A DNA stretch of 64,000 nt. Source: a virus. The DNA is taken from positions 42,871 through 106,870 of IMG/VR virus record IMGVR_UViG_3300032462_000002, one strand, 5' to 3'. The position numbers were made by a program, and so were the translations under genes. The notes beneath the pieces were generated by a model. That model saw nothing but the letters and a program-made list of their open reading frames with translations. It made no database searches and was not told where the DNA came from. This document shows positions 22,113 through 55,094 of this stretch, one piece after another; the stretch's first letter is position 1, and each line of letters starts with the position of its first letter.

Positions 22113-23378
22113 ATGTCGATGTTAGAGGAAGCCAAAAAACAACTACATGCTGCGTACAAGTTTGCTCAAATTGATGATGAAAGTTGGCAGCGTCTTCAAT
22201 ATCCACAAAAGACCCTCAATGTCACAATTCCAATGCGACATGATGATGGCACTCTCAAAATGTATCAGGCATTTCGCTGCCAATACGATACAACTCTCGG
22301 CCCAGCAAAGGGTGGTATTCGCTACCATCCATCCGTAGACGCAGACCATTGCGAAGCTCTCGCATTATGGATGACTTTCAAGTGTGCCTGCCTCAAATTA
22401 CCATATGGTGGTGCCAAAGGCGGTATTTGCGTAGATGCGACAAAATTATCGCACCGTGAATTAGAACGTCTCAGTAAGGCTTATATCGCATCTATGATCG
22501 ACTTTATCGGTCCAGATGTTGATGTGCCTGCACCGGACCTTTATACCGACGAACGAATCATGGGCTGGATGTATTCTGAATACAAAAGAATCAAAGGTGG
22601 ACATCCAAAAGATATTGTCACTGGAAAACCAGTTGCTCTGGGAGGCATAGAAGGTAGAAGCTCTGCTACTGGCTATGGTGGATTTTACGTTCTGGAAAAT
22701 ATCCTCAACAATAGCGTGAGCAAAATAAACATTCCATCCAATCCAGAAGACATCCGAATTGCAATTCAAGGTTTCGGAAAAGTTGGGTATTGGTTAGCTG
22801 AAAAATGCTTCCGTTCTGGATTGAAGGTTGTGGCCTTGACGAATGAGTTTGGTGGCTCGTATAACGAACATGGACTAAATGTCTCAGCTTGTCGCAAGTC
22901 ATTAGATGAAAGCGGCGGCAAAGAATGGGGAGATGGTGACAAAATAACCAATGAAGAATTATGGTCATTGGATATTGATGTTCTGGCACCCTCGGCTGTT
23001 GAAAATGTCATCACCATCAATAATGCCGACAAAATCAAAGCCAAGGTAATTTTGGAAATGGCTAACGGACCCACCACAAATGAAGCTGATGCGATTCTAA
23101 ATGACCGTGGCATATTGGTGATTCCCGATATTTTGGCGAATGCTGGTGGTGTGGTTGTCAGCTATTTTGAATGGCTCCAAAACCGAACGGCGATCAGCCG
23201 AACACTGCAAGAAGTCGATCATGATCTCCGAGAAATGATGGTATACGCAACCGAAAGAGTTATTGCGTTGCACATGAAGCACGATATTTCTGCTCGGACG
23301 GCAGCATACGTTTTGGCATTAAAAAGAATCAATGATGCAAACATCTGTTTAGGAAGTCGAGGGTATTTTCAGAAATGA
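22113..23378 (+). CDS. gdhA: glutamate dehydrogenase (bacterial GdhA/GudB-like)
   Basis: A complete 421-residue glutamate dehydrogenase. It interconverts glutamate with 2-oxoglutarate and ammonia. Active-site segments are intact: K66 in GPAKGGIRYHP, K90 in MTFKC, K102 in PYGGAKGGI and D142 in PAPDLYTD; the nucleotide-binding domain has GFGKVG at 220-225 and VNEF-like TNEFGG at ~249, and the C-terminal AGGVVVSYFEW is conserved. Length is normal for the hexameric bacterial type. It is unusual in a phage; a decayed lysine aminotransferase that uses the same keto-acid pair lies 3 kb away. A terminator-like hairpin masks its ribosome-binding site. Confidence 0.96.
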   Translation: MSMLEEAKKQLHAAYKFAQIDDESWQRLQYPQKTLNVTIPMRHDDGTLKMYQAFRCQYDTTLGPAKGGIRYHPSVDADHCEALALWMTFKCACLKLPYGGAKGGICVDATKLSHRELERLSKAYIASMIDFIGPDVDVPAPDLYTDERIMGWMYSEYKRIKGGHPKDIVTGKPVALGGIEGRSSATGYGGFYVLENILNNSVSKINIPSNPEDIRIAIQGFGKVGYWLAEKCFRSGLKVVALTNEFGGSYNEHGLNVSACRKSLDESGGKEWGDGDKITNEELWSLDIDVLAPSAVENVITINNADKIKAKVILEMANGPTTNEADAILNDRGILVIPDILANAGGVVVSYFEWLQNRTAISRTLQEVDHDLREMMVYATERVIALHMKHDISARTAAYVLALKRINDANICLGSRGYFQK

Positions 23379-28874: not shown

Positions 28875-30917
28875 ATGAACGAGAGAAAAAATATCGTAAG
28901 GCAAAATACCACAAGAAAAACGCAAAACGATAAATTGAAAGAAGCGTTGGCAAAAAAGCCGACCGCATCTCATTTGAATACAGTGGGCATTTCTCCAATT
29001 CAAATGGACCAACTCAGTAGAATGCCGCCAGAAAAAGAAAAATTACTTAAAGATCGTCTGGTCAGAAATTCCAAGAATCGAAAAAGGTTTAACAATCGTC
29101 CCCTGACAGTTGTTCTTTCCGATCAGATAGCTGGCACTAGCTACATGGAGTCATTGGGTTCAAATGATGGTCGGTCCAATGAATGGCCTGCTCCTGCTTG
29201 GTTTCGCACAACACAACCAGTAGATGTTTCTGTAATTATTCCGCTATACAAAAGTGATAGTGTCATACAGGATTTAATTCGTACATGGCCAATTGAAACA
29301 GGAAAATACACTGTCGAAATAATCTTTGTTGACGATCAATGTCCAAAAAAATCAAAAGAAGTAGCATTGAACACCTGGACACTTCGCAAAAGTGAACTTA
29401 AAGGTCCAGTTGGTAAGATCATCTACAATTCAAGCAACAAAGGTTACGGACAAGCCTGTAATGCAGGTGCCGCTGTTGCTTCTGGCAAATACTTGATATT
29501 TTTGAATGCCGACACAAAGGTTACTTCGGGTTGGGTTGATCCTATGATCGAGTTGTTCAATGATCCCAAAGTTGGATTGGTTGGCAACATGCACCTAAAA
29601 GAAGGTGGCGATCATAATGGAACAATCGACAGTGCCGGGTCCGAGTGGAAATGGAACGATATGTCTTTTATTCACATCGGAAGACACTGTTATCGAAAAC
29701 AGGGCATTGCCGGACCCTACAAACCAGAAAATGCTCCTAGAGACTTGTTAGAAGTCAACGAACGAGAAATGGTAACTGGTTGCTGTTTTGCAATGACAAA
29801 ATCATTGTTTGAATATATTGGCGGATTCAATCCAAATTATAGAATTGGTTATTGGGAAGATTCTGAAATCTGCCTAAACGTCAAAGAACTTGGCTACAAG
29901 GTCATGTTCCAGCCTAAATCTGTAATCTATCATAAATTAGGACACACAGCATCAGGTGGGCATAGATATTTTGGTCACAACAAACTTTACTTCATGAACA
30001 AATGGGTCAAATCTCATCGACTCGATGATCTTTTGTTAACAGAAGCACGCTCAAAGAATGACAATCCTGTGAATCGCATTTTAGTTCGTCGTAGCAATGC
30101 TCATGGAGACGCATTGGTTGCAGCAGGCGTATGTGCTGGTCTTCGGAAGAAGTATCCAAAGGCCCACATTATGTTTTGCACTCTCTTTCCTGAAGTCATA
30201 TGCCAAAATCCAAACATTGATGAATTCATTGATGTTCGTCAAATACACAAAACTCCATTTGATGTATTTTACAATTTAGATTTTTGCTACGAATGGCGTC
30301 CAAGGATCAACATCCTTACGGCTTATGCTGAAGCTGTGGGCATCAAGAAAGAAGACTGCAAAGTCTGCATGGTGCCAGAGCCTTTCGAGTCACTTCCAAA
30401 AAATTACATTGTAGTTCACGCTGGTCGTACTGATTGGGTTGGCCGGGATTGGCCACACGAAAACTTCGTTGAATTAACGAAGAGGCTTATATCGGCTGGC
30501 GAAACTGTAGTGGCTGTTGGCAAATACTCTGAAGGTGAAATCCCTTGCAATCTGGACCTGAGATCAAAGACCAACATCGCACAAATGGCATTTGTCATGA
30601 GCAAAGCAAAGGCGTTTGTCGGCATTGATTCTTTGCCCATGCACGTCGCTCAGGCGTTCGACGTACCAGGAGTTTCTTTCTTTGGCTGCGTGTGGCCCGA
30701 ATCAAGAATCTACAGCGATAAGATGCGTGGCATCAACGCAAAAGATTTATCCTGTTTAGGTTGCCACCATCGTAAACCAGCGCCATCTACTGTGACTAAG
30801 AGTTGCGAAACAGGCACTCTGGATTGCATCAGTGGTGTATCTGTTGATGATATGTGGTTCAAAGTGCAAGACTTACTTGAGGAAGTGAACAATGGACGTA
30901 TTAGCCTCTTGGGATGA
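28875..30917 (+). CDS. bifunctional glycosyltransferase: GT2 fused to GT9
   Basis: A 680-residue fusion. After a ~115-residue basic head, residues ~118-375 form a GT2 domain: VSVIIPLYKSDS, FLNADTKVTSGW with the N-A-D metal site and YWEDSEICLNVKELGYKVMF. Residues ~405-670 form a GT9 (heptosyltransferase-like) domain: RILVRRSNAHGDALVAAG, YIVVHAGRTDWVGRDWP and GIDSLPMHVAQAF. The two activities would add consecutive sugars, probably to a virion or host glycan. No signal peptide. It overlaps the NodB gene by 26 bp. Confidence 0.93.
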   Translation: MNERKNIVRQNTTRKTQNDKLKEALAKKPTASHLNTVGISPIQMDQLSRMPPEKEKLLKDRLVRNSKNRKRFNNRPLTVVLSDQIAGTSYMESLGSNDGRSNEWPAPAWFRTTQPVDVSVIIPLYKSDSVIQDLIRTWPIETGKYTVEIIFVDDQCPKKSKEVALNTWTLRKSELKGPVGKIIYNSSNKGYGQACNAGAAVASGKYLIFLNADTKVTSGWVDPMIELFNDPKVGLVGNMHLKEGGDHNGTIDSAGSEWKWNDMSFIHIGRHCYRKQGIAGPYKPENAPRDLLEVNEREMVTGCCFAMTKSLFEYIGGFNPNYRIGYWEDSEICLNVKELGYKVMFQPKSVIYHKLGHTASGGHRYFGHNKLYFMNKWVKSHRLDDLLLTEARSKNDNPVNRILVRRSNAHGDALVAAGVCAGLRKKYPKAHIMFCTLFPEVICQNPNIDEFIDVRQIHKTPFDVFYNLDFCYEWRPRINILTAYAEAVGIKKEDCKVCMVPEPFESLPKNYIVVHAGRTDWVGRDWPHENFVELTKRLISAGETVVAVGKYSEGEIPCNLDLRSKTNIAQMAFVMSKAKAFVGIDSLPMHVAQAFDVPGVSFFGCVWPESRIYSDKMRGINAKDLSCLGCHHRKPAPSTVTKSCETGTLDCISGVSVDDMWFKVQDLLEEVNNGRISLLG

Positions 30918-31512
30918 TGGATCAACGGCTGATTTGAAGATGGCTGAACTTATGGCACGCTACAACGTACCAACCATTTTCTATTGGCCATCCATGCTAG
31001 GCAAAGCCAAGAATATGGCAATGACGAGTTCTTGGCTCACAGAAAAGGACTGCAAAGAGATAGCCAGTCGATTTGAAATCGGATCACATTCTGCGAGTCA
31101 TCAAGCAATGAGCAAAATGACCATTCCCCAATTGGGGATGGAAATTACAGATTCTCGTAAACACTGGCAAGACTTGACCGGGCAAGAAATTAAATCCTTT
31201 GCGTATCCTAAAAGCAGCATGAATAGTTTAACAAAAGCTCTTATTCGAGGAGCGGGCTACGAATCTGCTCGCACCAGCATACCGGGACACTTACAACCCG
31301 GTGACGATCCTTTTGCAATTCAATGCACAGTTCAAATCGGGATCGACCGCATTGAATACGTTGATAGATGCTGGGAATACTTTGCTGACGATATGTTATC
31401 CAAAGCAGAACCCAATAGTGTTTTCTACATCTTCGGAAACTCTTGGGATGTAGAAGCATACAACGATTGGGATGCTTTAGAGTCGCTTCTTATGAAGATA
31501 AAGTCCGCTTAA
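30892..31512 (+). CDS. polysaccharide deacetylase (NodB homology domain)
   Basis: A 206-residue NodB-family deacetylase, removing acetyl from N-acetylated sugars. Visible: ASWDDGS with catalytic D8 and metal D9, GSHSASH with H66 and H70 as the H-x-x-x-H pair, FAYPKSS matching motif 3, and a C-terminal FYIFGNSWDVE where the usual motif-5 histidine would be. No signal peptide, so it acts on cytoplasmic sugar intermediates, fitting its overlap with the GT2-GT9 fusion. Confidence 0.88.
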   Translation: MDVLASWDDGSTADLKMAELMARYNVPTIFYWPSMLGKAKNMAMTSSWLTEKDCKEIASRFEIGSHSASHQAMSKMTIPQLGMEITDSRKHWQDLTGQEIKSFAYPKSSMNSLTKALIRGAGYESARTSIPGHLQPGDDPFAIQCTVQIGIDRIEYVDRCWEYFADDMLSKAEPNSVFYIFGNSWDVEAYNDWDALESLLMKIKSA

Positions 31513-31743: not shown

Positions 31744-32181
31744 ATGAAACGACAGCTTACCGCATTTGAAGTACAAGATGTTCTTCACAAACTAGAATTA
31801 TATCTTGGCGATCTAAAGGTTCGCTGGGACCAGGAAAACTCTGGAACTCGCTCTTGGTTCACGGTGCCAAGAAGCTACATCTTAAAAGCCACGACATTTA
31901 TTGTCGGCATTCTTGACGAATTGATTACATTTGTCGAACCGATTATTCCAGAAGGCAGCGATAAGAAAGCTGCTGTTATGGCAGTAATAGGAAAACTATT
32001 TGACTACATTGTAGTTCAAGCGTTCCCTTTCTGGCTGAGGCCATTTGCAGGGACAATCAAGACAATTATTGTGGGCATTGTCATCGGTCACTTGATTGAT
32101 TTCATCGTCACAAAATACAACTCTGGTTATTGGTCAATGAAGCAGGAGGCTACAAATGGCACAACGGATCAAGTTGCGTAA
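31744..32181 (+). CDS. hydrophobic-helix protein coupled to the subtilase, 145 aa
   Basis: A 145-residue protein with AAGGAGG before the ATG. Hydrophobic helices at about 41-58 and 102-125 (TIKTIIVGIVIGHLIDFIV) suggest membrane association. Its last 26 bp overlap the subtilase start, so the two are co-translated and it may anchor or regulate the protease. A CTATATATC element lies at 31706-31714. Function otherwise unknown. Confidence 0.7.
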   Translation: MKRQLTAFEVQDVLHKLELYLGDLKVRWDQENSGTRSWFTVPRSYILKATTFIVGILDELITFVEPIIPEGSDKKAAVMAVIGKLFDYIVVQAFPFWLRPFAGTIKTIIVGIVIGHLIDFIVTKYNSGYWSMKQEATNGTTDQVA

Positions 32182-33112
32182 TCCCGTATGCAATCTTTTG
32201 CCATACGAACGGGAAGATTTCTTGACTATTCAAGAGGTCGCACAAAAAATAGGGTGGGAAATTACAGCATTCAATCTTCCAGAAGCCTGGGAATTCTCCA
32301 AGGGCGAAGGAGTGATCGTTGCTGTACTCGATACGGGAGCAGATTTAGACCATGATGACCTCGTGGAAAATCTTCTTCCTGGCAGGAACTTTGTTGATTC
32401 AAATTCACCGCCAGAAGATGATAACGGTCATGGATCACACGTCGCTGGCATCATCTGTGCTGCTAATAATGATTTTGGAGTTGTAGGTGTTGCTCCAAAG
32501 GCCAAGATCATTCCGGTTAAGGTGTTAGACAATAAAGGTGCGGGGAACCTACCAAACGTCGCCAATGGAATTCGTTGGGCCGCAGATCAAGGTGTTGACT
32601 TTATTACGTTGTCGCTTGGCGCACCGGCTCAAATGCCAATGATTCAAGATGCCATTCGTTATGCGGCATCCAAAGGAGCAGTAACTTGGTGTGCTGCTGG
32701 TAATGCTGGCAAAACACGACAGATATTCTATCCGGCTGCTTATCCCGAAGTAATCGGCATTGGTGCCATTGATGAAAACTTCGACCGTGCTTCTTTTAGC
32801 TGCACAGGTCCAGACTTGGATTTTGTGGCCCCAGGAGTAAAAATTTTGAGTACGGTTCCAGACAACTGGTATGCCGTTCTATCAGGCACGAGTATGGCAA
32901 ATCCATTTGCCGTAGGCGTGGCGTCATTGCTGTTGTCTTACAAGCGGACCAAGAATCTGAATATTCAGTTGAGAAATAATACTGACTATATCAATTTAAT
33001 GAAATCTTACACAATATCAACGAAAAATCCCGAATACGCCGGTCAAAGATTCTTTGAGGGATTCGGGATTATCGACCCACGCAAGATGGAATATTGGGTT
33101 AAGTCACATTAG
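32156..33112 (+). CDS. intracellular subtilisin-like serine protease (S8)
   Basis: A 318-residue subtilase without signal peptide. The triad is complete: D59 in AVLDTG, H92 in NGHGSHVAG and S246 in SGTSMANP, with oxyanion N183 in AAGNAG. The N-terminal NLLPYERE matches the LIPY-type pro-sequence of Bacillus intracellular proteases, which blocks the active site until removed. The ~45-residue C-terminal extension is unusual. Possible jobs: cleaving host proteins, processing phage precursors such as tagged head proteins, or both. Convergent with the McsA-like gene. Confidence 0.94.
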   Translation: MAQRIKLRNPVCNLLPYEREDFLTIQEVAQKIGWEITAFNLPEAWEFSKGEGVIVAVLDTGADLDHDDLVENLLPGRNFVDSNSPPEDDNGHGSHVAGIICAANNDFGVVGVAPKAKIIPVKVLDNKGAGNLPNVANGIRWAADQGVDFITLSLGAPAQMPMIQDAIRYAASKGAVTWCAAGNAGKTRQIFYPAAYPEVIGIGAIDENFDRASFSCTGPDLDFVAPGVKILSTVPDNWYAVLSGTSMANPFAVGVASLLLSYKRTKNLNIQLRNNTDYINLMKSYTISTKNPEYAGQRFFEGFGIIDPRKMEYWVKSH

Positions 33113-34336: not shown

Positions 34337-35161
34337 TTATGCTGGAATGCCATCACCTTTTATTCTCAAAACAAAACCGTCATTTTCAATTGCTGGCGTA
34401 TTGACAGGAACTATTCTCTTGATCCACACAGGAATACTATCAAGGGGACGAATATCGCCTACAGAAGCCGTTGAATCAAAAACGATATTGTTGGGGTTTG
34501 TGGTATCGACATCAATAACGTCGGCCACACGATTGATGGGACCACCATTAACGGACTTGGCAACACTAATGGTTGTCAGTTGACTAGACACTAGATTATT
34601 CCCGCCAGCTTTGAGAACCAAAACTTCGTGATGCCTTTTGGATGCCGCTCCTACAAAATCAATTTCAAACGTCGCACTTGAACCCGACAACAACCCAGAA
34701 ACCGTAACATCTTCGAGATTGGCAATAGATCGAATCGCAGTTTGAAGGTTTCCTGACCAAATGCTTAAATTTGCATCGTAATTTACGATTATATCGTGGT
34801 TGCTGGTGTCTGTATACGTCAATGTAAAAGAACCACTTGTAATGGACGTGGCGTTCGCAACAGTTAAATTCTGTCGTTCATTGGATAAATCGAATCCCAA
34901 TTGCACCGTTACTTCGCCAGGAACAGTGTAGGCAACATAAATCAATGCGTTGTATAAAGAATCAACATTGCTTTCATTGTTGACATAAAAACACCGATAG
35001 TCAATGACGCCCGATTTAGTTTCGGCATTCGACACATCATCAAACAATCTCTTGTTGAGGATTGGCTGCACAGAGGGTTCGCCGCCCAGAGAGTTGTTGG
35101 GATCGGAATTTATGCTGCCACCTGAAAAAGTAAAAGTAATGTCGGAAATTGACAAGCTCAT
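34337..35161 (-). CDS. beta-rich virion-type protein, 274 aa
   Basis: A 274-residue beta-rich protein, MSLSISDITFTFSGGSINSDPNNSLGG, with Thr/Ser/Asn-rich strands, repeated GSFTLTYTDTS-type units and no cysteine apart from one. The start overlaps the stop of the HTH gene as TAATG. Composition and the N-terminal GGSINSDPNNSLGG-x-x-S pattern are typical of phage tail or baseplate-associated proteins. Specific position in the virion cannot be assigned. Confidence 0.68.
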   Translation of the reverse strand: MSLSISDITFTFSGGSINSDPNNSLGGEPSVQPILNKRLFDDVSNAETKSGVIDYRCFYVNNESNVDSLYNALIYVAYTVPGEVTVQLGFDLSNERQNLTVANATSITSGSFTLTYTDTSNHDIIVNYDANLSIWSGNLQTAIRSIANLEDVTVSGLLSGSSATFEIDFVGAASKRHHEVLVLKAGGNNLVSSQLTTISVAKSVNGGPINRVADVIDVDTTNPNNIVFDSTASVGDIRPLDSIPVWIKRIVPVNTPAIENDGFVLRIKGDGIPA

Positions 35162-35553: not shown

Positions 35554-36330
35554 ATGAGTTACAACCGCTATATCGACTGGAAGCCGGTCCCGGCAAACTC
35601 GAAGATTCTACAGATATATTCCAAAGGATTGGAATATGCCTTGGTTTCTGCCGATTACGAGCAGTGTCATCCATTCGTGTGGTGTAAAGACTTTCTCCAT
35701 GATGTCATGTATGGAACTTTGCACAATAAATGGTTTGAAATATACAAGTTCAAATACAACCCGACACTTGATTCGGCTCCTTGTCTTGACCGGATTCGGT
35801 TGTTGCTCACAAATTCAAAAGACAAGAAATTTGCAGAAAAAATTCCGGCTGTTATTGATTTCATAAATCAAATTGAAGAACGCCTCAAAATCAAAAAGTC
35901 ATTTGCTCGAAAATGCGGTTGTCCACCCGAAGCATACCAAAAAGCTGGTGTGTTTATGTTTGAAGGCAGCAAGAGATGGATTCAATCACCGCCAATGCTT
36001 TCGCTCTACACTTTGTTGTTGCGTGTAGGGTTCTGTCACACAGTAGGTGACTCCTTTTTGAAAACAATCGAAGGAGTCAAGTCTGGCGAGATCAAACCTT
36101 ACCAGAAGAAGGACGGATACTGGCTTAAAAGCTCAGATATTGCCCTTCAAAAGATTTTGCGGGTCGGCGACCGACGAATCTTCTACAGAGATATTCAGTT
36201 GAACTACCCTAGCAATATGCAGATCGACTCGATCCACAACAAGCTGGGTATTATCGGGTTTGCCACGGACATAATGTACAATGCCATTGGCCAACCCGTT
36301 CTCGTTCCGTACTGGCACTATCAAAAGTGA
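35554..36330 (+). CDS. unknown protein preceding the amidoligase, 258 aa
   Basis: A 258-residue protein behind GGAG, 9 bp before the amidoligase gene. The first half is alpha/beta with WCKDFLHDVMYGTLHNKWFEIY; a basic middle (RLKIKKSFARKCGCPPEAYQ) leads to a helix-rich end with GDSFLKTIEGVKSGEI and NKLGIIGFATDIM. Cysteines at KCGC are isolated. Operon position suggests it supplies or binds the amidoligase substrate. I do not recognise the family. Confidence 0.7.
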   Translation: MSYNRYIDWKPVPANSKILQIYSKGLEYALVSADYEQCHPFVWCKDFLHDVMYGTLHNKWFEIYKFKYNPTLDSAPCLDRIRLLLTNSKDKKFAEKIPAVIDFINQIEERLKIKKSFARKCGCPPEAYQKAGVFMFEGSKRWIQSPPMLSLYTLLLRVGFCHTVGDSFLKTIEGVKSGEIKPYQKKDGYWLKSSDIALQKILRVGDRRIFYRDIQLNYPSNMQIDSIHNKLGIIGFATDIMYNAIGQPVLVPYWHYQK

Positions 36331-36339
36331 GGATTAGTT

Positions 36340-37281
36340 ATGGGCTTTACATTTGGAAGCGACCCTGAGTTCATGTTGACGCATCATGATGAACTCAAGA
36401 GCGCAATCGACATTCTTCCCAAAAAAGAAAATGCCGTAATCAAACACGGGCATGGATATTACTTCGATAATGTCTTAGCTGAGATTGCAGTAAAACCAGC
36501 CAAGAATAAAGACGAAGCTCTATACAACATGCGATCTGCGCTGCATGGACTTGCTCAGGTCATTCAACCTGCCAAGTTCGTCACAAGGGCATCTGGCAAT
36601 TACCCTAAAAAAGAATTGAATTGCCCTGATGCCAAGATTGCTGGATGTAATCCAGAATGGAACGTGTACAGTCTTCAACAGGTATTCCCACCCGACGAGG
36701 ATGTGGACCTTCTGGATGGCTACTACCAGTTCAAGACGCCATTCCGTTCAGCGGGCGGTCACATCCATATTGGAAGTGATAGCCTTCAAGACCCTATGGA
36801 AGCATTCAGCGTCATTCGCATGATGGACTTGTTCCTGGGCATTCCTTCTATCTTTATGGATACAGATGAGACATCCAAAGACAGAAGAACAATCTATGGT
36901 CATGCAGGGTCGCATCGTATTCCAGATTATGGTTTGGAATATCGTGCATTGGGTAATTTCTGGCTGTCATCGCCAGAGCATGTTGCTTTGATGTACGATC
37001 TCACTGAATTCGTTTTAGGCTTTGTAAACAAAAAAACCCACGAACGATTCTGGACTGTGAACGAGGATTTGTTGGACGAAGACGATCCCAGCGTTGCGTA
37101 TTCTTGTTTTGGCTACGATGTCAATATGCTCCGCAAAGCAATTGACACATGCAGCAGAAAAGAAGCTGATAAGTTCATGATATTCGTGAGCAACTATCTG
37201 CCGACTCGTTTGTCACAAGCGATTGAACGGCTTTCTGGTAAAGCCCTTCCTGATCCTTATGTCGCATGGAATATTGAATAA
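36340..37281 (+). CDS. phage-type COOH-NH2 ligase (amidoligase, phiEco32-like type 2)
   Basis: A 313-residue ATP-grasp-related amidoligase. Family marks in order: FGSDPEFMLT (4-13), VLAEIAVKPAKN (~46-57), FRSAGGHIHIGS (~131-142), and HRIPDYGLEYRALGNFWLSSP (shown in part). Such enzymes form amide bonds between a carboxyl and an amine using ATP, but their natural substrates in phages are unproven; proposed roles include modifying peptides, cell-wall or surface glycans. Its stop overlaps the ATG of the hydrolase (TAATG). Confidence 0.88.
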   Translation: MGFTFGSDPEFMLTHHDELKSAIDILPKKENAVIKHGHGYYFDNVLAEIAVKPAKNKDEALYNMRSALHGLAQVIQPAKFVTRASGNYPKKELNCPDAKIAGCNPEWNVYSLQQVFPPDEDVDLLDGYYQFKTPFRSAGGHIHIGSDSLQDPMEAFSVIRMMDLFLGIPSIFMDTDETSKDRRTIYGHAGSHRIPDYGLEYRALGNFWLSSPEHVALMYDLTEFVLGFVNKKTHERFWTVNEDLLDEDDPSVAYSCFGYDVNMLRKAIDTCSRKEADKFMIFVSNYLPTRLSQAIERLSGKALPDPYVAWNIE

Positions 37282-37946
37282 TGTATGAAGTATTCGTTCG
37301 TGAATCACACGGAGAGTGTCTAGGTTTAATCGTGTTGCTACCGGGTCGTGGACAGCCTGCAAAGGACATCCTGACCCGGTATCATCGCTATTCGACATTA
37401 GATCAATTCACATTGGTGGCTGTAGAGCCAGTCGATGAATGGTATCCTGCGCCAAATGGCGCAGAAGATCAAATGGAAGCGGTATGGGGGCTGAGGCTAT
37501 CTGTGCCTCAGATGGATGGGTTCATTGCTGAACTTGAAGAAGAATTTGAAGTGGATAGGTCCAATGTGACCTTGAGTGGTTTTTCAGCCGGGGCTGTAAT
37601 GGCAATTCAAATTGCGGCCCACACAGATAGACCATTCAACTCTGTGATTGCTCACAATGGAGCAATTCTGGCACCTGAAGAATTGCCAGAGTCAATTCAT
37701 CCAACTAAATATCTTGTTCTTCACAACGAAAATGACGATTGCTTTTCATGGGAAGAACGATATTTGCCTATGAAGAATGCACTAATGGAACGAGGTTACG
37801 ACTTAGAAGTGTTCGAGAACGAAGTCGGTGGTCACTATATCGCTCCAGAAGACGTTGAAGAAGTTGGCCTCTGGTTGAGAGAGCAATATGATTTACCTAT
37901 GCCGGAAAAATCAACGGACTCTTTTTCTGAAGAGTCTCCCGAATAA
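37281..37946 (+). CDS. alpha/beta hydrolase (phospholipase/carboxylesterase-like)
   Basis: A 221-residue alpha/beta hydrolase of the carboxylesterase/YpfH type. LLPGRGQPAKD marks the oxyanion strand, LSGFSAGAVMA carries the nucleophile serine (G-x-S-x-G), NENDDCFSWEE the acid and GGHYIAPED the histidine. The C-terminal 25 residues are Ser/Glu-rich. Being coupled to an amidoligase, it may undo or trim the ester/amide products, or activate the substrate. It overlaps the convergent Prim-Pol gene by 50 bp. Confidence 0.88.
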   Translation: MYEVFVRESHGECLGLIVLLPGRGQPAKDILTRYHRYSTLDQFTLVAVEPVDEWYPAPNGAEDQMEAVWGLRLSVPQMDGFIAELEEEFEVDRSNVTLSGFSAGAVMAIQIAAHTDRPFNSVIAHNGAILAPEELPESIHPTKYLVLHNENDDCFSWEERYLPMKNALMERGYDLEVFENEVGGHYIAPEDVEEVGLWLREQYDLPMPEKSTDSFSEESPE

Positions 37947-38607
37947 CTCGGCATGATTGCCTCAAGTCGAACTCTCGACACTTGTGACACATCCACGACA
38001 ACTTGTATTCTTGGAAGGCCCTCATTTCCAATAATAAACGCTTTTTGTGAATGAAGAATTCTTCTTTGCAACATTTGCATATCGTTTGAGTGTATCCGTC
38101 TTTGGCTTGTTTGCCAATTTTATGTTTGGAATTATGCGATTCATAATATCGCAGTAATTCATCAGGCATATTTGGCACTATGAAATTAGAGCCAACCAGC
38201 CAGCCATATTTAGAACCATCTTTGTGCATTGACGGCGGCACAACAGATTGATGTTTGTGCGCACGGAATTCCATTCCGTTAAAGACCTTGCGAGTCAAAG
38301 AGGGATCGGGATTCAAAAAAATATGATGTGTTGACTTGGAGCTACGAAACTTAGGATGAGGCGTATATTCTGTCATCTGATGCAAAAGATCATTCGCCTC
38401 TTCTGTATCTCCTTCAACGTCTACTACACTCCCAAGCAATATACCCATTTCGTAGGCGTTTTCAATTTCAAAGTATGGACGCCATTTTTCAGCGGTCCAG
38501 TTGCCATTCCAATTTAGTCCAACAGGGGCTTTCTTTGCTTTGAAAATCGCAATGGGCTGGAACCCGGCTTGAACGTAGAGTTCAAACCATTCTGCTTTTG
38601 TTGGCAT
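37897..38607 (-). CDS. primase-polymerase (Prim-Pol, AEP) with C-terminal zinc finger
   Basis: A 236-residue archaeo-eukaryotic-type Prim-Pol. The acidic motif VVDVEGD (D63, E65), the STHHIF motif (H94/H95) and VVPPSMHKDGSKYGW (123-136) follow the order of the bifunctional primase/polymerase N-terminal family. The C-terminus adds a zinc site with C177, C179/180 and C207, C210, joined by a basic helix. No helicase domain is fused. It could prime phage replication or restart; stand-alone AEPs also occur in defence modules. Confidence 0.82.
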   Translation of the reverse strand: MPTKAEWFELYVQAGFQPIAIFKAKKAPVGLNWNGNWTAEKWRPYFEIENAYEMGILLGSVVDVEGDTEEANDLLHQMTEYTPHPKFRSSKSTHHIFLNPDPSLTRKVFNGMEFRAHKHQSVVPPSMHKDGSKYGWLVGSNFIVPNMPDELLRYYESHNSKHKIGKQAKDGYTQTICKCCKEEFFIHKKRLLLEMRAFQEYKLSWMCHKCREFDLRQSCRVIRETLQKKSPLIFPA

Positions 38608-42273: not shown

Positions 42274-43758
42274 ATGTTTACAGAAGACGATGTTTTGAAG
42301 TTGATTGAAAAAGCAATCGAAGCTGCATTCAAAAAGTTTAAGGCGGGATGCTATCAGGACGCCGAAATAATACTCAATCAAACCATTAAAGTCTTTCCTA
42401 CAGAAATTCACGCATTGCAATTGATGGGTCTTGTAAAACACAATCTTGGCAAATTCACAGAAGCCATCGACATCTTCAACAAAACAATAGAAATTGCTCC
42501 CAACGATCCAGAAAACTATAACAACATAGGTTTGTGTTATTCAAACAATGGAAAATACGATGCTGCAATTGAAATGCTAAAAAAGGCCATCGAACTAAAT
42601 CCAACTTGCGCCTACATGCACAGCAACCTGGGGCTTCAACACAGAAACATCAATAATCTCGATTCCGCTATCGAATGTTTCCAAAAATCACTTTCTATCG
42701 AAGAGAGTGATTTAACCTGGGGCATGTTAGGTGGATGCTACGGGGAAAAACGTCATTTAGACGACGCTGAAAGGTGTTTCAAAAAGTCGATTGAAATCAA
42801 CCCAAACTTTGCTGGTGGCCATGTAGACTTGGCAAACGTATATCACTTAAAAGGCGAGTGGGATAAGGCTTGGGAAGAATACGAATGGCGATATGAAGTA
42901 TTTGAACAACTTAAAGTATGGAAAAATCTCTATGACCCAAGCAAGACATGGAATGGCGAACCACTTGATGGCAAGACTATAATCGTTCATGGAGAACAAG
43001 GTCACGGTGATACCATTCAGTTCTTCAGATACATCCATCATTTGAAAGCTCGTGTCATATTACACTGTTCAAATGATTTGGCTTCTATTTTTGCTGGTCA
43101 TGTAGATGAGATTTACACAAATGAACCTAGTGAAACTAAAACAGAACAATTGCCAGTTCACGACTACCACTGTTCTATTTTGAGTTTGCCTTATCTTCTA
43201 AAACTGAAAGCGATACCGCCTTTCTCATTGAAGATTGACAAAAGTATAAATCTTGATGGTTACTCTAATCTAATGAAGATCGGCATTGTTTGGGCGGGAA
43301 ATCCACAACATCCAAACGACGCCAATCGCTCCTGCCATCTGAAACATTTTCGTGAGATTCATGATATTCCTGGCGTTAAATTGTTTAGCTTAGTCAAGGA
43401 CATACGACCTCGCATCTACCGCTTTAACGCCAATCCAATTGATCTCACCGAAGAAACTGAGGACATGAAAATTGTGGATATGGCACCAATGATGGAAACA
43501 TTCAGAGACACAGCAGAAGTCATCAATTCTCTCGATTTAGTGATTACTGTAGACACATCTGTTCTGCATCTCGCCGGATCAATGGGAAAACCGACCTGGG
43601 CCTTATTGCCGTGGACTTGTGACTGGAGATGGGGTTCAGGAGAAGAAACAATATGGTATCCGAGCGTTCGGATATTTCGCCAACCGTCCAAAGGCGATTG
43701 GCAGTCAGTATTTTCAAACATCAAAAAAGAGATTTACAATGAACAACGATTATGTTGA
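42274..43758 (+). CDS. TPR-glycosyltransferase
   Basis: A 494-residue protein; of several in-frame starts I choose the ATG at 42274, preceded by AAAAAGGA. Residues ~1-225 hold about six tetratricopeptide repeats (AIDIFNKTIEIAPNDPENYNN, shown in part). The C-terminal half is a GT9-like glycosyltransferase: WNGEPLDGKTIIVHGEQGHGD, IGIVWAGNPQHPNDANRSC and DTSVLHLAGSMGKPTWALLP. TPR-transferases commonly glycosylate proteins or O-antigen-like glycans. It overlaps the next gene by 20 bp. Confidence 0.9.
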   Translation: MFTEDDVLKLIEKAIEAAFKKFKAGCYQDAEIILNQTIKVFPTEIHALQLMGLVKHNLGKFTEAIDIFNKTIEIAPNDPENYNNIGLCYSNNGKYDAAIEMLKKAIELNPTCAYMHSNLGLQHRNINNLDSAIECFQKSLSIEESDLTWGMLGGCYGEKRHLDDAERCFKKSIEINPNFAGGHVDLANVYHLKGEWDKAWEEYEWRYEVFEQLKVWKNLYDPSKTWNGEPLDGKTIIVHGEQGHGDTIQFFRYIHHLKARVILHCSNDLASIFAGHVDEIYTNEPSETKTEQLPVHDYHCSILSLPYLLKLKAIPPFSLKIDKSINLDGYSNLMKIGIVWAGNPQHPNDANRSCHLKHFREIHDIPGVKLFSLVKDIRPRIYRFNANPIDLTEETEDMKIVDMAPMMETFRDTAEVINSLDLVITVDTSVLHLAGSMGKPTWALLPWTCDWRWGSGEETIWYPSVRIFRQPSKGDWQSVFSNIKKEIYNEQRLC

Positions 43759-51941: not shown

Positions 51942-52676
51942 ATGAAAGGCATTATTTTAGCAGGCGGGATGGGGACAAGACTTCATCCTTTGACAAAAGT
52001 AACCAACAAATGCTTATTGCCAGTGCATGATAGACCCATGATTTATTGGCCAATTCAAACACTTGTGGGCAGTGGCATCAAAGATATTCTTTTAGTATGT
52101 GGCGGGAACGCCGCAGGTGAATTTTTGAGAATCCTTGGCAACGGTGAAGAATTTGGCCTGAAACATCTTCACTACACATACCAGAAAGAAGCAAATGGAA
52201 TTGCCGACGCTTTATCTTTGGCAGAAGAATGGGCAGACAATGAACCAGTAGCCGTAATTCTGGCTGACAACATTTATGAAAATCCGGTTCCTGAAGTTGT
52301 TACCGCCTTTGAAAAGAATCCTGATGGCGCACACATCTTCTTGACGCCAGTAGACCATCCAGAGTGTTACGGCGTAGTTGAAACAGACGCAGCAGGAAAA
52401 GTAATAGGGATCGAAGAAAAACCTAAAGAACCGAAATCCAACTTGATCGCAACAGGGTTGTATATGTACGACGGAGGAGTTTGGGACTACATCCGAACGC
52501 TCAAGCCATCCAAGAGAAACGAACTTGAGATCACCGATCTCAATAATCGTTATTTGGGCATTGGGAAGCTCCACGCTCACACAATCAATGGTTGGTGGGC
52601 AGACTGCGGAGAAAGTCTCGAAGGATATACGCAGACGTGCTATGCAGCCAGCAGACTTGGAAAGAAGGCTGAGTAA
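51942..52676 (+). CDS. sugar-1-phosphate nucleotidyltransferase (RmlA-like)
   Basis: A 244-residue nucleotidyltransferase making NDP-sugar from NTP and sugar-1-phosphate. GGMGTRLHPLT (8-18) is the signature, with LLPVHDRPMIYWP, ILADNIYE (metal aspartate) and GIEEKPKEPKS with the second catalytic lysine. It resembles glucose-1-phosphate thymidylyltransferase but is ~45 residues shorter at the C-terminus, as in short RmlA/RfbF forms. CGGAGG precedes the ATG. It feeds the transferases at 52678 and elsewhere. Confidence 0.93.
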   Translation: MKGIILAGGMGTRLHPLTKVTNKCLLPVHDRPMIYWPIQTLVGSGIKDILLVCGGNAAGEFLRILGNGEEFGLKHLHYTYQKEANGIADALSLAEEWADNEPVAVILADNIYENPVPEVVTAFEKNPDGAHIFLTPVDHPECYGVVETDAAGKVIGIEEKPKEPKSNLIATGLYMYDGGVWDYIRTLKPSKRNELEITDLNNRYLGIGKLHAHTINGWWADCGESLEGYTQTCYAASRLGKKAE

Positions 52677-52677
52677 A

Positions 52678-53565
52678 ATGAAAGTTGTAGTTTGTCCTTT
52701 GGTTAGTCGAGATGTCCCGAAAGCAATTAGGGCAGTCAACTCGATTCGCAACATGATGGCAACAACCGAAGTTCAGTTTTCGGTTGTTGCCATCATCAAT
52801 TCGTTAAACGCTGAATTCATTCAGGAATTCAAAACTTGGTGCGACCAAGAATCTGTTGAATACAAAATAACGCCGTCCAAAGGAACTCCCGCAGCAGGTA
52901 AAAATCAATGCCTGAAGTTTTTCCGGGAATCTCAATATGATGGAATGTGCATGGTTGATGGTGACGATCTGTATTATCCAAGTGCCGGACTCCAAATCGA
53001 GAGACACTTAAAGCATCACCCTGGCACTGATTTATTGATCGTCAAGCCATCCGATCAAATCAATAACTACAGCAACAATTCAGTCCAAATAAAAGAAAAA
53101 GTACACGCCTGTTGTTGGGGCGACAATATATTCCCATTGCCATACACTTATGGACCCGCAAAACATGAAATGTTCTCCAACAGAGCGGCTGCTCACAACT
53201 TAGGCGGGCATGTTTTTTACAGTCGCAAATTTGTCGAACTCCTTGAATACGATGAAGACCAACTATTGGGAGAAGACCTCTTGTTGGAGTTCAAAGCATT
53301 GAAGCTGCATCAGGAAGGGAAGTTGTGCTTCTGGCTGAGTTTTGCCAGCGACGTTCAGTTTCTTGATCGAACAGGCGAATCAAATATTCAAGCGATAAAA
53401 AACGAAACAGACGGAGAGATGTATTACAACCGGCTGGTTGAAAAAGTAACGTCGATCCTTGATACAAATCGAAGTTCGTTCAATGAGCTTCCTGTGGAAT
53501 TTCCCAAAATCATATTCGGTCATGCCGAAAAAATTGCGTGGATTGCCCAACAAGTCGTAGTCTAA
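52678..53565 (+). CDS. glycosyltransferase family 2-like protein
   Basis: A 295-residue protein one base after the nucleotidyltransferase stop (TAAAATG). MKVVVCPLVSRDVPKAIRAVNS begins a GT-A fold (shown in part); GTPAAGKNQCLKFF and MVDGDDLYYPSAGL carry the D-x-D-D metal site at ~98-101; LLGEDLLLEF fits the ED catalytic base. Pairing with the nucleotidyltransferase suggests that it uses that enzyme's product. Confidence 0.82.
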   Translation: MKVVVCPLVSRDVPKAIRAVNSIRNMMATTEVQFSVVAIINSLNAEFIQEFKTWCDQESVEYKITPSKGTPAAGKNQCLKFFRESQYDGMCMVDGDDLYYPSAGLQIERHLKHHPGTDLLIVKPSDQINNYSNNSVQIKEKVHACCWGDNIFPLPYTYGPAKHEMFSNRAAAHNLGGHVFYSRKFVELLEYDEDQLLGEDLLLEFKALKLHQEGKLCFWLSFASDVQFLDRTGESNIQAIKNETDGEMYYNRLVEKVTSILDTNRSSFNELPVEFPKIIFGHAEKIAWIAQQVVV

Positions 53566-53566
53566 A

Positions 53567-53595
53567 TTTACAAACGGCAAATTTCGTGGTAGAAT
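53567..53595 (+). promoter_or_regulatory. sigma70-like promoter of the NAMPT gene
   Basis: TTTACA, exactly 17 bp, TAGAAT. The leader contains a small hairpin, CGATGCA-AGG-TGCATCG, near 53630-53648; too short for a known NAD riboswitch. Confidence 0.6.
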
Positions 53596-53678
53596 ACTTC
53601 CGTCACAACGCCCCTAAATGAAGCAAGCCCCGATGCAAGGTGCATCGAGGCCAAGGTATTCTCCAGAAAGGACCGAAA

Positions 53679-55094
53679 ATGAATTGGCTCAACAACATTT
53701 GCTGGCTTTCCGATTCGTACAAAATCAGTCACTACAAGCAGTATCCGCCTGGGACAAAACGAATTTACTCGTATTTCGAGTCACGATCCGGGTCGGTTCA
53801 TCCTGCCACGACCTTTTTTGGCCTCCAATATTGGCTGAAGCAATATCTGGTTGGGCAAGTCGTAACCGCCGAAAAAATCGACAAAGCAGAACGGCTGTTT
53901 AACAAACACTTCGGCGGCAAGGTTTTTAATCGTGAGGGTTGGGAATACATCCTCAACGTCCACAATGGTCGCCTACCTGTCGAGATTAAAGCGGCCCCCG
54001 AAGGTACAGTGGTTGGAGAATCCAACGTGTTGATGACGGTCGAAAATACCGACGACAACGCATTTTGGTTGACCAACTATCTGGAAACTTTACTGGTCCA
54101 GGTTTGGTATCCATCGACAGTCGCCACGCAAAGCCGAGCGATGAAGAAAGTCATCCTCGAATATCTTGCAAAGACAGGCGATACGGACCTGATCCACTTC
54201 AAGTTACACGACTTCGGTTTCCGTGGGGTCACTTGCCCAGAACAAGCCGCAATCGGTGGTGCATCGCACCTTGTAAACTTCATGGGAACCGATACGATTC
54301 TAGGGCTTGTCTTATTGGACGAATTCTATCATGAACCATGTGCTGGCTTCTCGATTCCGGCTGCTGAACACAGCACAATCACGTCATGGGGACGTGAACA
54401 CGAAGTCGATGCTTGTCGCAACATGCTAGTTCAGTATCCAACCGGCCTCGTAGCAACAGTGAGCGATAGCTACGACATTTTCAACTGCTGTGCCAATATT
54501 TGGGGCGGCGTCCTCAAAGACGAAGTGTTGGCTCGTGACGGTGTTTTGGTTGTTCGCCCGGACTCTGGCGACCCTCCGACCGTTGTGGTGAAAGTGCTGG
54601 ATATTCTTGGCGAGAAATTCGGCATCACGATGAACAACAAGGGATATAAAGTCCTGCATCCCAAGGTTCGAGTTATTCAAGGAGACGGCATCGACTTCAA
54701 GATGCTCGACCTGATCCTCTCAGCAATGGAAAAAGCTGGTTGGTCGGCTGACAACATTGCCTTCGGTTCAGGTGGTGGACTGCTTCAAAAACTCAATCGA
54801 GACACCCAACGATTTGCCTTCAAGTGTTCTTCGGCAGTTGTTGGCGATGAAGTCAGAGACGTTTACAAGCAGCCCATCACGGACGGCTGCAAGAAGTCCA
54901 AAGCTGGACGATTGAAGTTGGTCTGGTCAGACCGTCTCGGCCTCCTGGCGGGCGCACACGGCAAGGTTTTACAAACTGTGCCTGAGTCTGATCCACGTCC
55001 CGATCAGTTGCAGTTTGTCTTCAGGAACGGCGAACTTCTGGTTGACCAGACATTCGAGCAAGTTCGAGAAGCGACTAAACATACGATTCTGTAA
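53679..55094 (+). CDS. nadV: nicotinamide phosphoribosyltransferase (NAMPT)
   Basis: A 471-residue NAMPT converting nicotinamide and PRPP to NMN. The ATG at 53679 follows AGAAAGGA. Key residues are present: D178 in KLHDFGFRG, H231 in AAEHSTITSWG, R293 and D295 in VVRPDSGDPP, and FGSGGGLLQKLNRDT near the end. In other large phages NAMPT, with an NMN adenylyltransferase, rebuilds NAD after NADase-type defences (NARP2 logic); no adenylyltransferase is in this window. A broken SLOG-like gene and a NUDIX gene, both plausible in nucleotide metabolism, follow. Confidence 0.96.
   Translation: MNWLNNICWLSDSYKISHYKQYPPGTKRIYSYFESRSGSVHPATTFFGLQYWLKQYLVGQVVTAEKIDKAERLFNKHFGGKVFNREGWEYILNVHNGRLPVEIKAAPEGTVVGESNVLMTVENTDDNAFWLTNYLETLLVQVWYPSTVATQSRAMKKVILEYLAKTGDTDLIHFKLHDFGFRGVTCPEQAAIGGASHLVNFMGTDTILGLVLLDEFYHEPCAGFSIPAAEHSTITSWGREHEVDACRNMLVQYPTGLVATVSDSYDIFNCCANIWGGVLKDEVLARDGVLVVRPDSGDPPTVVVKVLDILGEKFGITMNNKGYKVLHPKVRVIQGDGIDFKMLDLILSAMEKAGWSADNIAFGSGGGLLQKLNRDTQRFAFKCSSAVVGDEVRDVYKQPITDGCKKSKAGRLKLVWSDRLGLLAGAHGKVLQTVPESDPRPDQLQFVFRNGELLVDQTFEQVREATKHTIL

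Follow-up and report, generated by a model that had tools for sequence, protein, structure and literature searches.

A predicted amidoligase system of LUZ24/phiEco32-type phages was reportedly described by Iyer et al. in 2009. Islands of this kind, in which a PF14395 ligase lies within a multi-enzyme amide-chemistry cluster, are known from LUZ24 (gp16-gp22) and GAP52, and ORFs 21-29 of UFV-P2 form another one (PMC3890496). For the amidoligase/glutamine amidotransferase (GATase) genes of phiEco32, a modification of the cell wall against superinfection has been suggested (PMC10580990, citing Iyer et al. 2009), and the same source describes the product of phage amidoligases as an open question. 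Here, three adjacent genes encoding the proteins A, B and C (positions 35554-37946, plus strand) were analysed in a 64,000-nucleotide stretch of virus DNA, hereafter the window, which corresponds to positions 42,871 to 106,870 of the IMG/VR virus record IMGVR_UViG_3300032462_000002 (106,870 bases). We interpret this trio as a compact form of the phage amidoligase island, a cluster type that is itself already known, with protein A as a probable core partner. Whereas the LUZ24/phiEco32-like islands combine several enzymes of amide chemistry, no gene for Amidoligase_2, GATase, ATP-grasp or GGACT is linked to the trio, which carries an alpha/beta hydrolase (protein C) instead. Going by the titles and abstract openings among the literature matches listed, no paper on the trio or on protein A was found, and in the jumbo-phage survey PMC7824862 the word 'amidoligase' occurs in the reference list only.

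Genetic organization and selection

The orientation of the three genes on the plus strand, their coordinates and both junctions were confirmed within the window, in agreement with the initial annotation, which had described three coupled genes with a 9-bp gap followed by TAATG. The gene for protein A (258 aa) spans positions 35554-36330 and is separated by the 9-bp gap (36331-36339) from the gene for protein B (313 aa), which spans positions 36340-37281. The gene for protein C (221 aa) spans positions 37281-37946 and is joined to the previous one by a stop/start overlap, TAATG (37279-37283), in which the stop codon TAA of B and the start codon ATG of C have one base in common. Shine-Dalgarno-like stretches are present 5' of A (GGAG) and of B (GAGG, running from the end of A into the gap). 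No obvious stretch of this type was seen upstream of C, which fits coupled translation. The 9-bp gap between A and B is also present in the relatives L012-L015, L050, L052, L055 and L061, and overlapping start candidates for C (-1 or -4 relative to B) were seen again in many relatives. A promoter scan yielded nothing above chance (7 sites versus 6.5 expected), and 5 terminator-like sites were obtained for 2.7 expected (standard deviation 1.8).

Comparison with the relative L003 revealed protein identities of 95% for A, 91% for B and 83% for C, with dN/dS values of ~0.04, ~0.06 and ~0.09, respectively. These low ratios indicate that all three are real genes under purifying selection.

Protein B, the predicted ligase

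Protein B matches PF14395 (phage COOH-NH2 ligase type 2) with 58 bits, the cut-off being 25, and phrog_3815 with an E value of 1.5e-42. Relatives of B were detected by tblastn (E 1e-5) in 304 of 50,697 phage records, with an identity below 60% in all of them. Among the best 50 rows of the structural comparison, the AlphaFold2 model of B (pLDDT 93.2) matched YbdK, Dop, PafA, GshA and glutamine synthetases with Z scores of 12.7-15.2 over 216-260 residues. The top matches were of the YbdK type (1tt4, Z 15.2; 1r8g, Z 15.1); values for Dop/PafA were 14.4-15.0, and GshA came in the next range (12.8-13.7). An alignment of 18 sequences shows no variation at E10, D43, E48, R136, H141, H143, D163, E200 and R202, and the conserved acidic and histidine residues among them are presumably metal/ATP-site positions.

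By fold and motif, B is a predicted carboxylate-amine ligase of the glutamine-synthetase/YbdK/PafA superfamily, as the initial annotation had proposed. In contrast to YbdK and GshA, it is viral and usually accompanied by A; it is also shorter than GshA and shares only ~11% identity with YbdK. With PafA and Dop it has the fold in common, at a sequence identity of 12-14%.

Protein A, a partner without a family name

Searches with protein A of the window yielded nothing in Pfam (up to E 1), PHROGs (E 0.1) or NCBIfam (E 0.001); one of six A relatives scanned against PHROGs (L065) matched phrog_13811, of unassigned function, weakly (E 0.0034). No match was obtained in the 50,697 phage records at E 1, no relative was confirmed in genome contigs (57 pattern matches checked), and none was found among PDB sequences (best E 0.11). 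When divergent A proteins were used as queries over the phage records, that of L065 gave one weak match, MW202697, that of MW202615 retrieved itself only, and the copies of L071 and L069 retrieved nothing. At the sequence level, A is therefore a family without a name in Pfam, PHROGs and NCBIfam.

In an alignment of 37 A sequences, no exception was seen to C44, D46, W142, R157 and G232, and hardly any to G25, K45, D50, E108, S150, D187, Y218 and H228; the family signature reads C44-[KR]45-D46, D50, W142, S150, R157, D187, H228, G232. The GGHxHxG motif of B was not seen by eye in this alignment, and A is thus not a canonical ligase of B's kind. No link between A and either B or Amidoligase_2 was obtained with hhalign, a result of little weight, since the method also misses the link between B and Amidoligase_2.

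The AlphaFold2 model of A (pLDDT 95.1, pTM 0.93) is compact and globular, without any low-confidence stretch. Because of this compact model and the few strictly conserved residues, A seems likelier to be a catalytic or specificity partner than a carrier, and the initial suggestion that it might carry the substrate is judged unlikely on the same grounds. With VIA-align, the best ten rows were YbdK and glutamine synthetases with weak Z scores (4.8-5.3), in a range (below 8) that may reflect a common arrangement, and an unrelated row came next (Z 4.4); families outside the VIA-align listing may fit as well. The match to YbdK (1r8g) comprises 155 residues (3.9 A) and, like that of B, extends over residues 10-370 of YbdK. 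Lower rows contained guanido kinases (Z 2.8-3.1), LuxS, biotin protein ligases and others. A glutamine-synthetase-like fold for A is taken as a lead, no more.

Foldseek found nothing for A in the PDB at E 1e-3 and one match in BFVD, the uncharacterized protein A0A6J5LH58 (E 1.3e-5). The protein at rank 3 in BFVD, K4F9T7 (290 aa), was not significant (E 0.32, probability 0.20). It is most likely GAP52 gp028, encoded by the only 290-aa coding sequence noticed by eye in the GAP52 record, two genes upstream of the COOH.NH2 ligase, and its likeness to A is suggestive only. Neither LUZ24 gp14/gp15 nor GAP52 gp028/gp029, located upstream of the ligase, showed a sequence link to A. Proteins of the LUZ24 gp14/gp15 type were considered as equivalents of A and rejected; they lack the A motif, and the alignment was too poor to use. 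These pairs form a two-gene parallel, with two uncharacterized genes upstream of the ligase in each phage, and two A-type genes close together were observed at L064:4956-9051, L066:4947-9079 (profile) and L087:11303-12642 (the second one by eye).

Conservation of the trio and its relation to amidoligase islands

Eighteen loci were gathered with A or B as query, near-duplicates included, so that the counts for A and B are partly due to selection; A was present in 16 of them, B in 18 and C in 16. Of 40 virus records searched in full with profiles, a set likewise gathered through A or B, all contain B, 38 contain A and 31 contain C. These records are often fragments and include the near-duplicates G000/G001, G011/G012, G022/G024, G025/G027 and G034/G036, and the profiles used for them, as for the loci found with A alone, were built partly from the same contigs that were searched, which match by construction. 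The initial annotation had made the case for the trio depend on its conservation in related phages, and such conservation was found, in phage contigs of up to 527 kb.

In 34 of the 39 loci found with A alone, B starts no more than ~260 nt past the end of A, and C then follows in 28 of the 39; in L071 and L073, B lies a few kb upstream of A. The wider neighbourhood is also kept in the 30 closer loci, at least five of which are shortened by contig ends: an unrelated minus-strand gene at 34337 was detected in 29, a subtilase gene in 25, an epimerase gene in 22, a helix-turn-helix gene in 21 and a Prim-Pol gene in 20, versus 28 for C. In L064, L065, L066 and L068 (L066 and L068 being near-identical), A and B occur together, with none of 14 other tabulated window genes within ~5 kb.

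The co-occurrence of A and B extends to fuller islands. Record G032 has two copies of A within 5 kb, in the order GGACT, A, B, C26, A, and G034/G036 show the same order. In G033, B, A, C26, ATP-grasp and GATase follow in a row, with another B, GATase and C26, together with GGACT, located further on. In G038 and G039, A and B lie within ~5 kb with C26 between them. Two GenBank phages from Manatee Spring also have a relative of A in their islands. In MW202615 it scored 45 bits (E 5.4e-14, with only seven regions searched), and in MW202697 54 bits (E 5.7e-19 when that protein alone was compared; E 2e-3 by tblastn over all phage records). None of Amidoligase_2, GATase, ATP-grasp and GGACT was found in the record of the window, which is a fragment, ATP-grasp_3 being the only ATP-grasp family searched. 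The closest such parts in records with the trio, all of them unlinked, are Amidoligase_2 at ~8 kb (G022/G024) and GGACT at ~10 kb (G018).

Protein C and its probable hydrolase position in the island

Protein C belongs to the carboxylesterase/acyl-protein-thioesterase family PF02230 (34 bits, cut-off 23). Against solved structures, its profile retrieved 24 sequences of carboxylesterases and acyl-protein thioesterases at E 0.001 (best E 3e-18). Residues S102 (in GFSAG), D152 and H185 do not vary among 16 aligned sequences and form the probable catalytic triad, with D152 and H185 assigned by analogy with relatives. C is set apart within its family by the stretches WYP.P and D.CF.W.R, which stand out as conserved in the same alignment, and by the lack of any PHROG match and, for the window protein, of any relative among INPHARED phage records (both at E 0.1). 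PF02230 enzymes are known mainly for ester and thioester substrates. This weakens the original idea that the hydrolase could reverse the amides made by the ligase; what suggests editing is the near-complementarity of C with C26.

The 40 records were split into 33 of the trio type (G000-G031 and G035) and 7 divergent ones (G032, G033, G034 and G036-G039). C was detected in 31 of the 33 and in none of the 7, whereas C26 in open frames below ~310 aa, a size cut chosen after seeing the data, was present in 6 and in all 7, respectively. The corresponding counts were 4/33 and 5/7 for GGACT, 18/33 and 5/7 for GATase_6, 10/33 and 2/7 for Amidoligase_2, and 1/33 and 2/7 for ATP-grasp_3, other ATP-grasp families not having been searched. 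Many PF07722 matches of trio-type records fall in frames of 530-594 aa and were not counted as C26 peptidases; the one scanned (G002) is a CTP synthase. C is thus found where C26 is mostly missing, as if in its slot, which is suggestive of a replacement, and C probably occupies the hydrolase position of the island.

An ammonia-releasing partner may be encoded away from the trio. G002 encodes a class II GATase of 395 aa that stands alone, ~1 kb from the confirmed CTP synthase gene; its identity to the island GATase of L065 is 26% (E 1e-14). G015 has a similar GATase of 356 aa. At L091:4221-5408, in a trio-type phage, such a stand-alone class II glutamine amidotransferase comprises the GlmS-type N-terminal part only and lies near pyrG. 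A C26-type gene was noticed at L093:2763-3584 (G022), with gamma-glutamyl-CDP-amidate hydrolase, an enzyme of capsule phosphoramidate synthesis, as best NCBIfam match (E 1.3e-12, below the cut-off).

Other genes of the window

A glutamate dehydrogenase gene (22113-23378, plus strand) matches PF00208 (E 6.2e-62) and PF02812 (E 1.8e-52), with NCBIfam relatives below their cut-offs and no PHROG match; its product is possibly a source of glutamate or ammonia for the amide chemistry. Positions 28875-31512 (plus strand) encode a 680-aa protein in which a GT2 and a GT9 glycosyltransferase domain are combined and, after it, a polysaccharide deacetylase. The subtilase gene mentioned above (32156-33112, plus strand) encodes a serine protease of this family (PF00082, E 2.8e-52). 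The Prim-Pol gene (37897-38607, minus strand) is convergent with C and overlaps its 3' end by 50 bp; the short protein (236 aa) begins with a Prim-Pol domain (PF09250, E 3.4e-13), and its C-terminal part looks Cys-rich by eye. Genes for a nucleotidyl transferase and a nicotinamide/nicotinate phosphoribosyltransferase are located at 51942-55094 (plus strand), and genes of NAD salvage are likewise found close to the amidoligase islands in Slicky01, Lbo-JY46 and GAP52.

Discussion

We propose, with a probability of about 0.5, that the operon is a compact jumbo-phage amidoligase island with B as the ligase, A as its partner and C as a releasing or editing hydrolase, and that the conjugate is used on envelope or host molecules. 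By analogy with its superfamily (YbdK, GshA, glutamine synthetase, PafA), B would activate a carboxylate with ATP and join it to an amine. A would most likely bind B or the substrate of B and set what gets joined. C, as a serine hydrolase, would replace the C26 gamma-glutamyl-amide hydrolase and/or the GGACT of fuller islands, and would most likely release or edit an acyl intermediate or the product. The product itself would most likely be a small gamma-glutamyl-type or aminoacyl conjugate intended for host envelope material or host molecules. The analysis itself establishes the gene structure, the selection and conservation of the genes, the families of B and C, the fold of B and the pairing of A with B across islands; formation of an A-B complex, the substrate, the direction of the reaction of C and the purpose of the system are what we infer here.

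Several observations weigh against this proposal. General synteny in close phages makes the adjacency of A, B and C weak evidence of joint function. The near-duplicate loci L033 and L034 (G011 and G012) keep B and C with A nowhere in the record, and C is missing in L035 and L039 (G013 and G017), indicating that neither A nor C is strictly obligate. In L069, L070 and L072, A has no B within 5 kb, and in G037, the record of L070, B is located ~14 kb away. A was not detected in 6 of the 7 GenBank island regions searched (LUZ24, Slicky01, Lbo-JY46, SJSY21, CW02 and T2S2). The complementarity between C and C26 tracks phylogeny and was obtained with near-duplicates, fragments and a post hoc size cut, and six trio-type records have both C and C26. 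Finally, a member of an esterase family such as C need not act on amides.

Since close relatives are syntenic over the whole neighbourhood, A and B might constitute the functional unit and C an unrelated hydrolase carried along by kept gene order, which would agree with its absence from all the divergent records and from 2 of the 33 trio-type ones. This is unlikely, given that the B/C stop/start overlap recurs in varied forms, that C stays near B even where Prim-Pol, epimerase or subtilase was not detected (e.g. L046, L053 and L062) and that its distribution is nearly complementary to that of small C26. An auxiliary role in nitrogen or amino-acid metabolism, where a free gamma-glutamyl metabolite fed by the phage glutamate dehydrogenase and a glutaminase would be formed in aid of biosynthesis in the infected cell and no macromolecule modified, is doubtful but deserves consideration. 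The window encodes such a dehydrogenase, GATase_6 occurs in more than half of the trio-type records (stand-alone class II in the two scanned, G002 and G015), and a nitrogen-metabolism role has been proposed for a planctomycete phage that encodes an amidoligase and GGCT (PMC10945688). Nevertheless, 12 kb separate the dehydrogenase gene from the trio, their co-occurrence is recorded here for this window alone, and metabolism would not in itself account for A as a regular partner.

A different possibility, which takes up the peptide or surface tagging pathway of the initial annotation, is Pup-like tagging of proteins or surfaces, with B coupling a small group, or a peptide, to lysine residues or amino sugars of virion or host proteins and C removing or editing it. 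The model of B reaches the same Z range with Dop and PafA as with YbdK (14.4-15.2), the window contains glycan genes (the GT2/GT9 protein, polysaccharide deacetylase, epimerase and nucleotidyl transferase), and the pairing of a ligase with a reversing activity, as in PafA/Dop, would be analogous to the trio. However, YbdK scores equally, with GshA and glutamine synthetases only slightly lower, and C, as an alpha/beta hydrolase of PF02230, is unrelated to the Dop fold; no Pup-like partner is known for the trio, none having been searched for. We regard such tagging as distinctly unlikely. It is highly improbable, although conceivable, that A is a second, diverged glutamine-synthetase-like protein that lost the HxH ligase motif and forms a two-component ligase with B, with the invariant Cys44 of the C-[KR]-D motif accepting the activated acyl group as a thioester, prior to its transfer to the amine, and C, as a relative of acyl-protein thioesterases, editing that thioester. 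The activation-relay-editing logic of such a viral system would be reminiscent of E1/E2 conjugation, and no counterpart of it is known to us.

In the interpretation that we prefer, that of a compact amidoligase island, the cluster is reduced to a small conserved form consisting of A, B and C, and this makes it a three-protein set suited to expression and assay. Protein A, in turn, provides a marker for finding further amidoligase islands.

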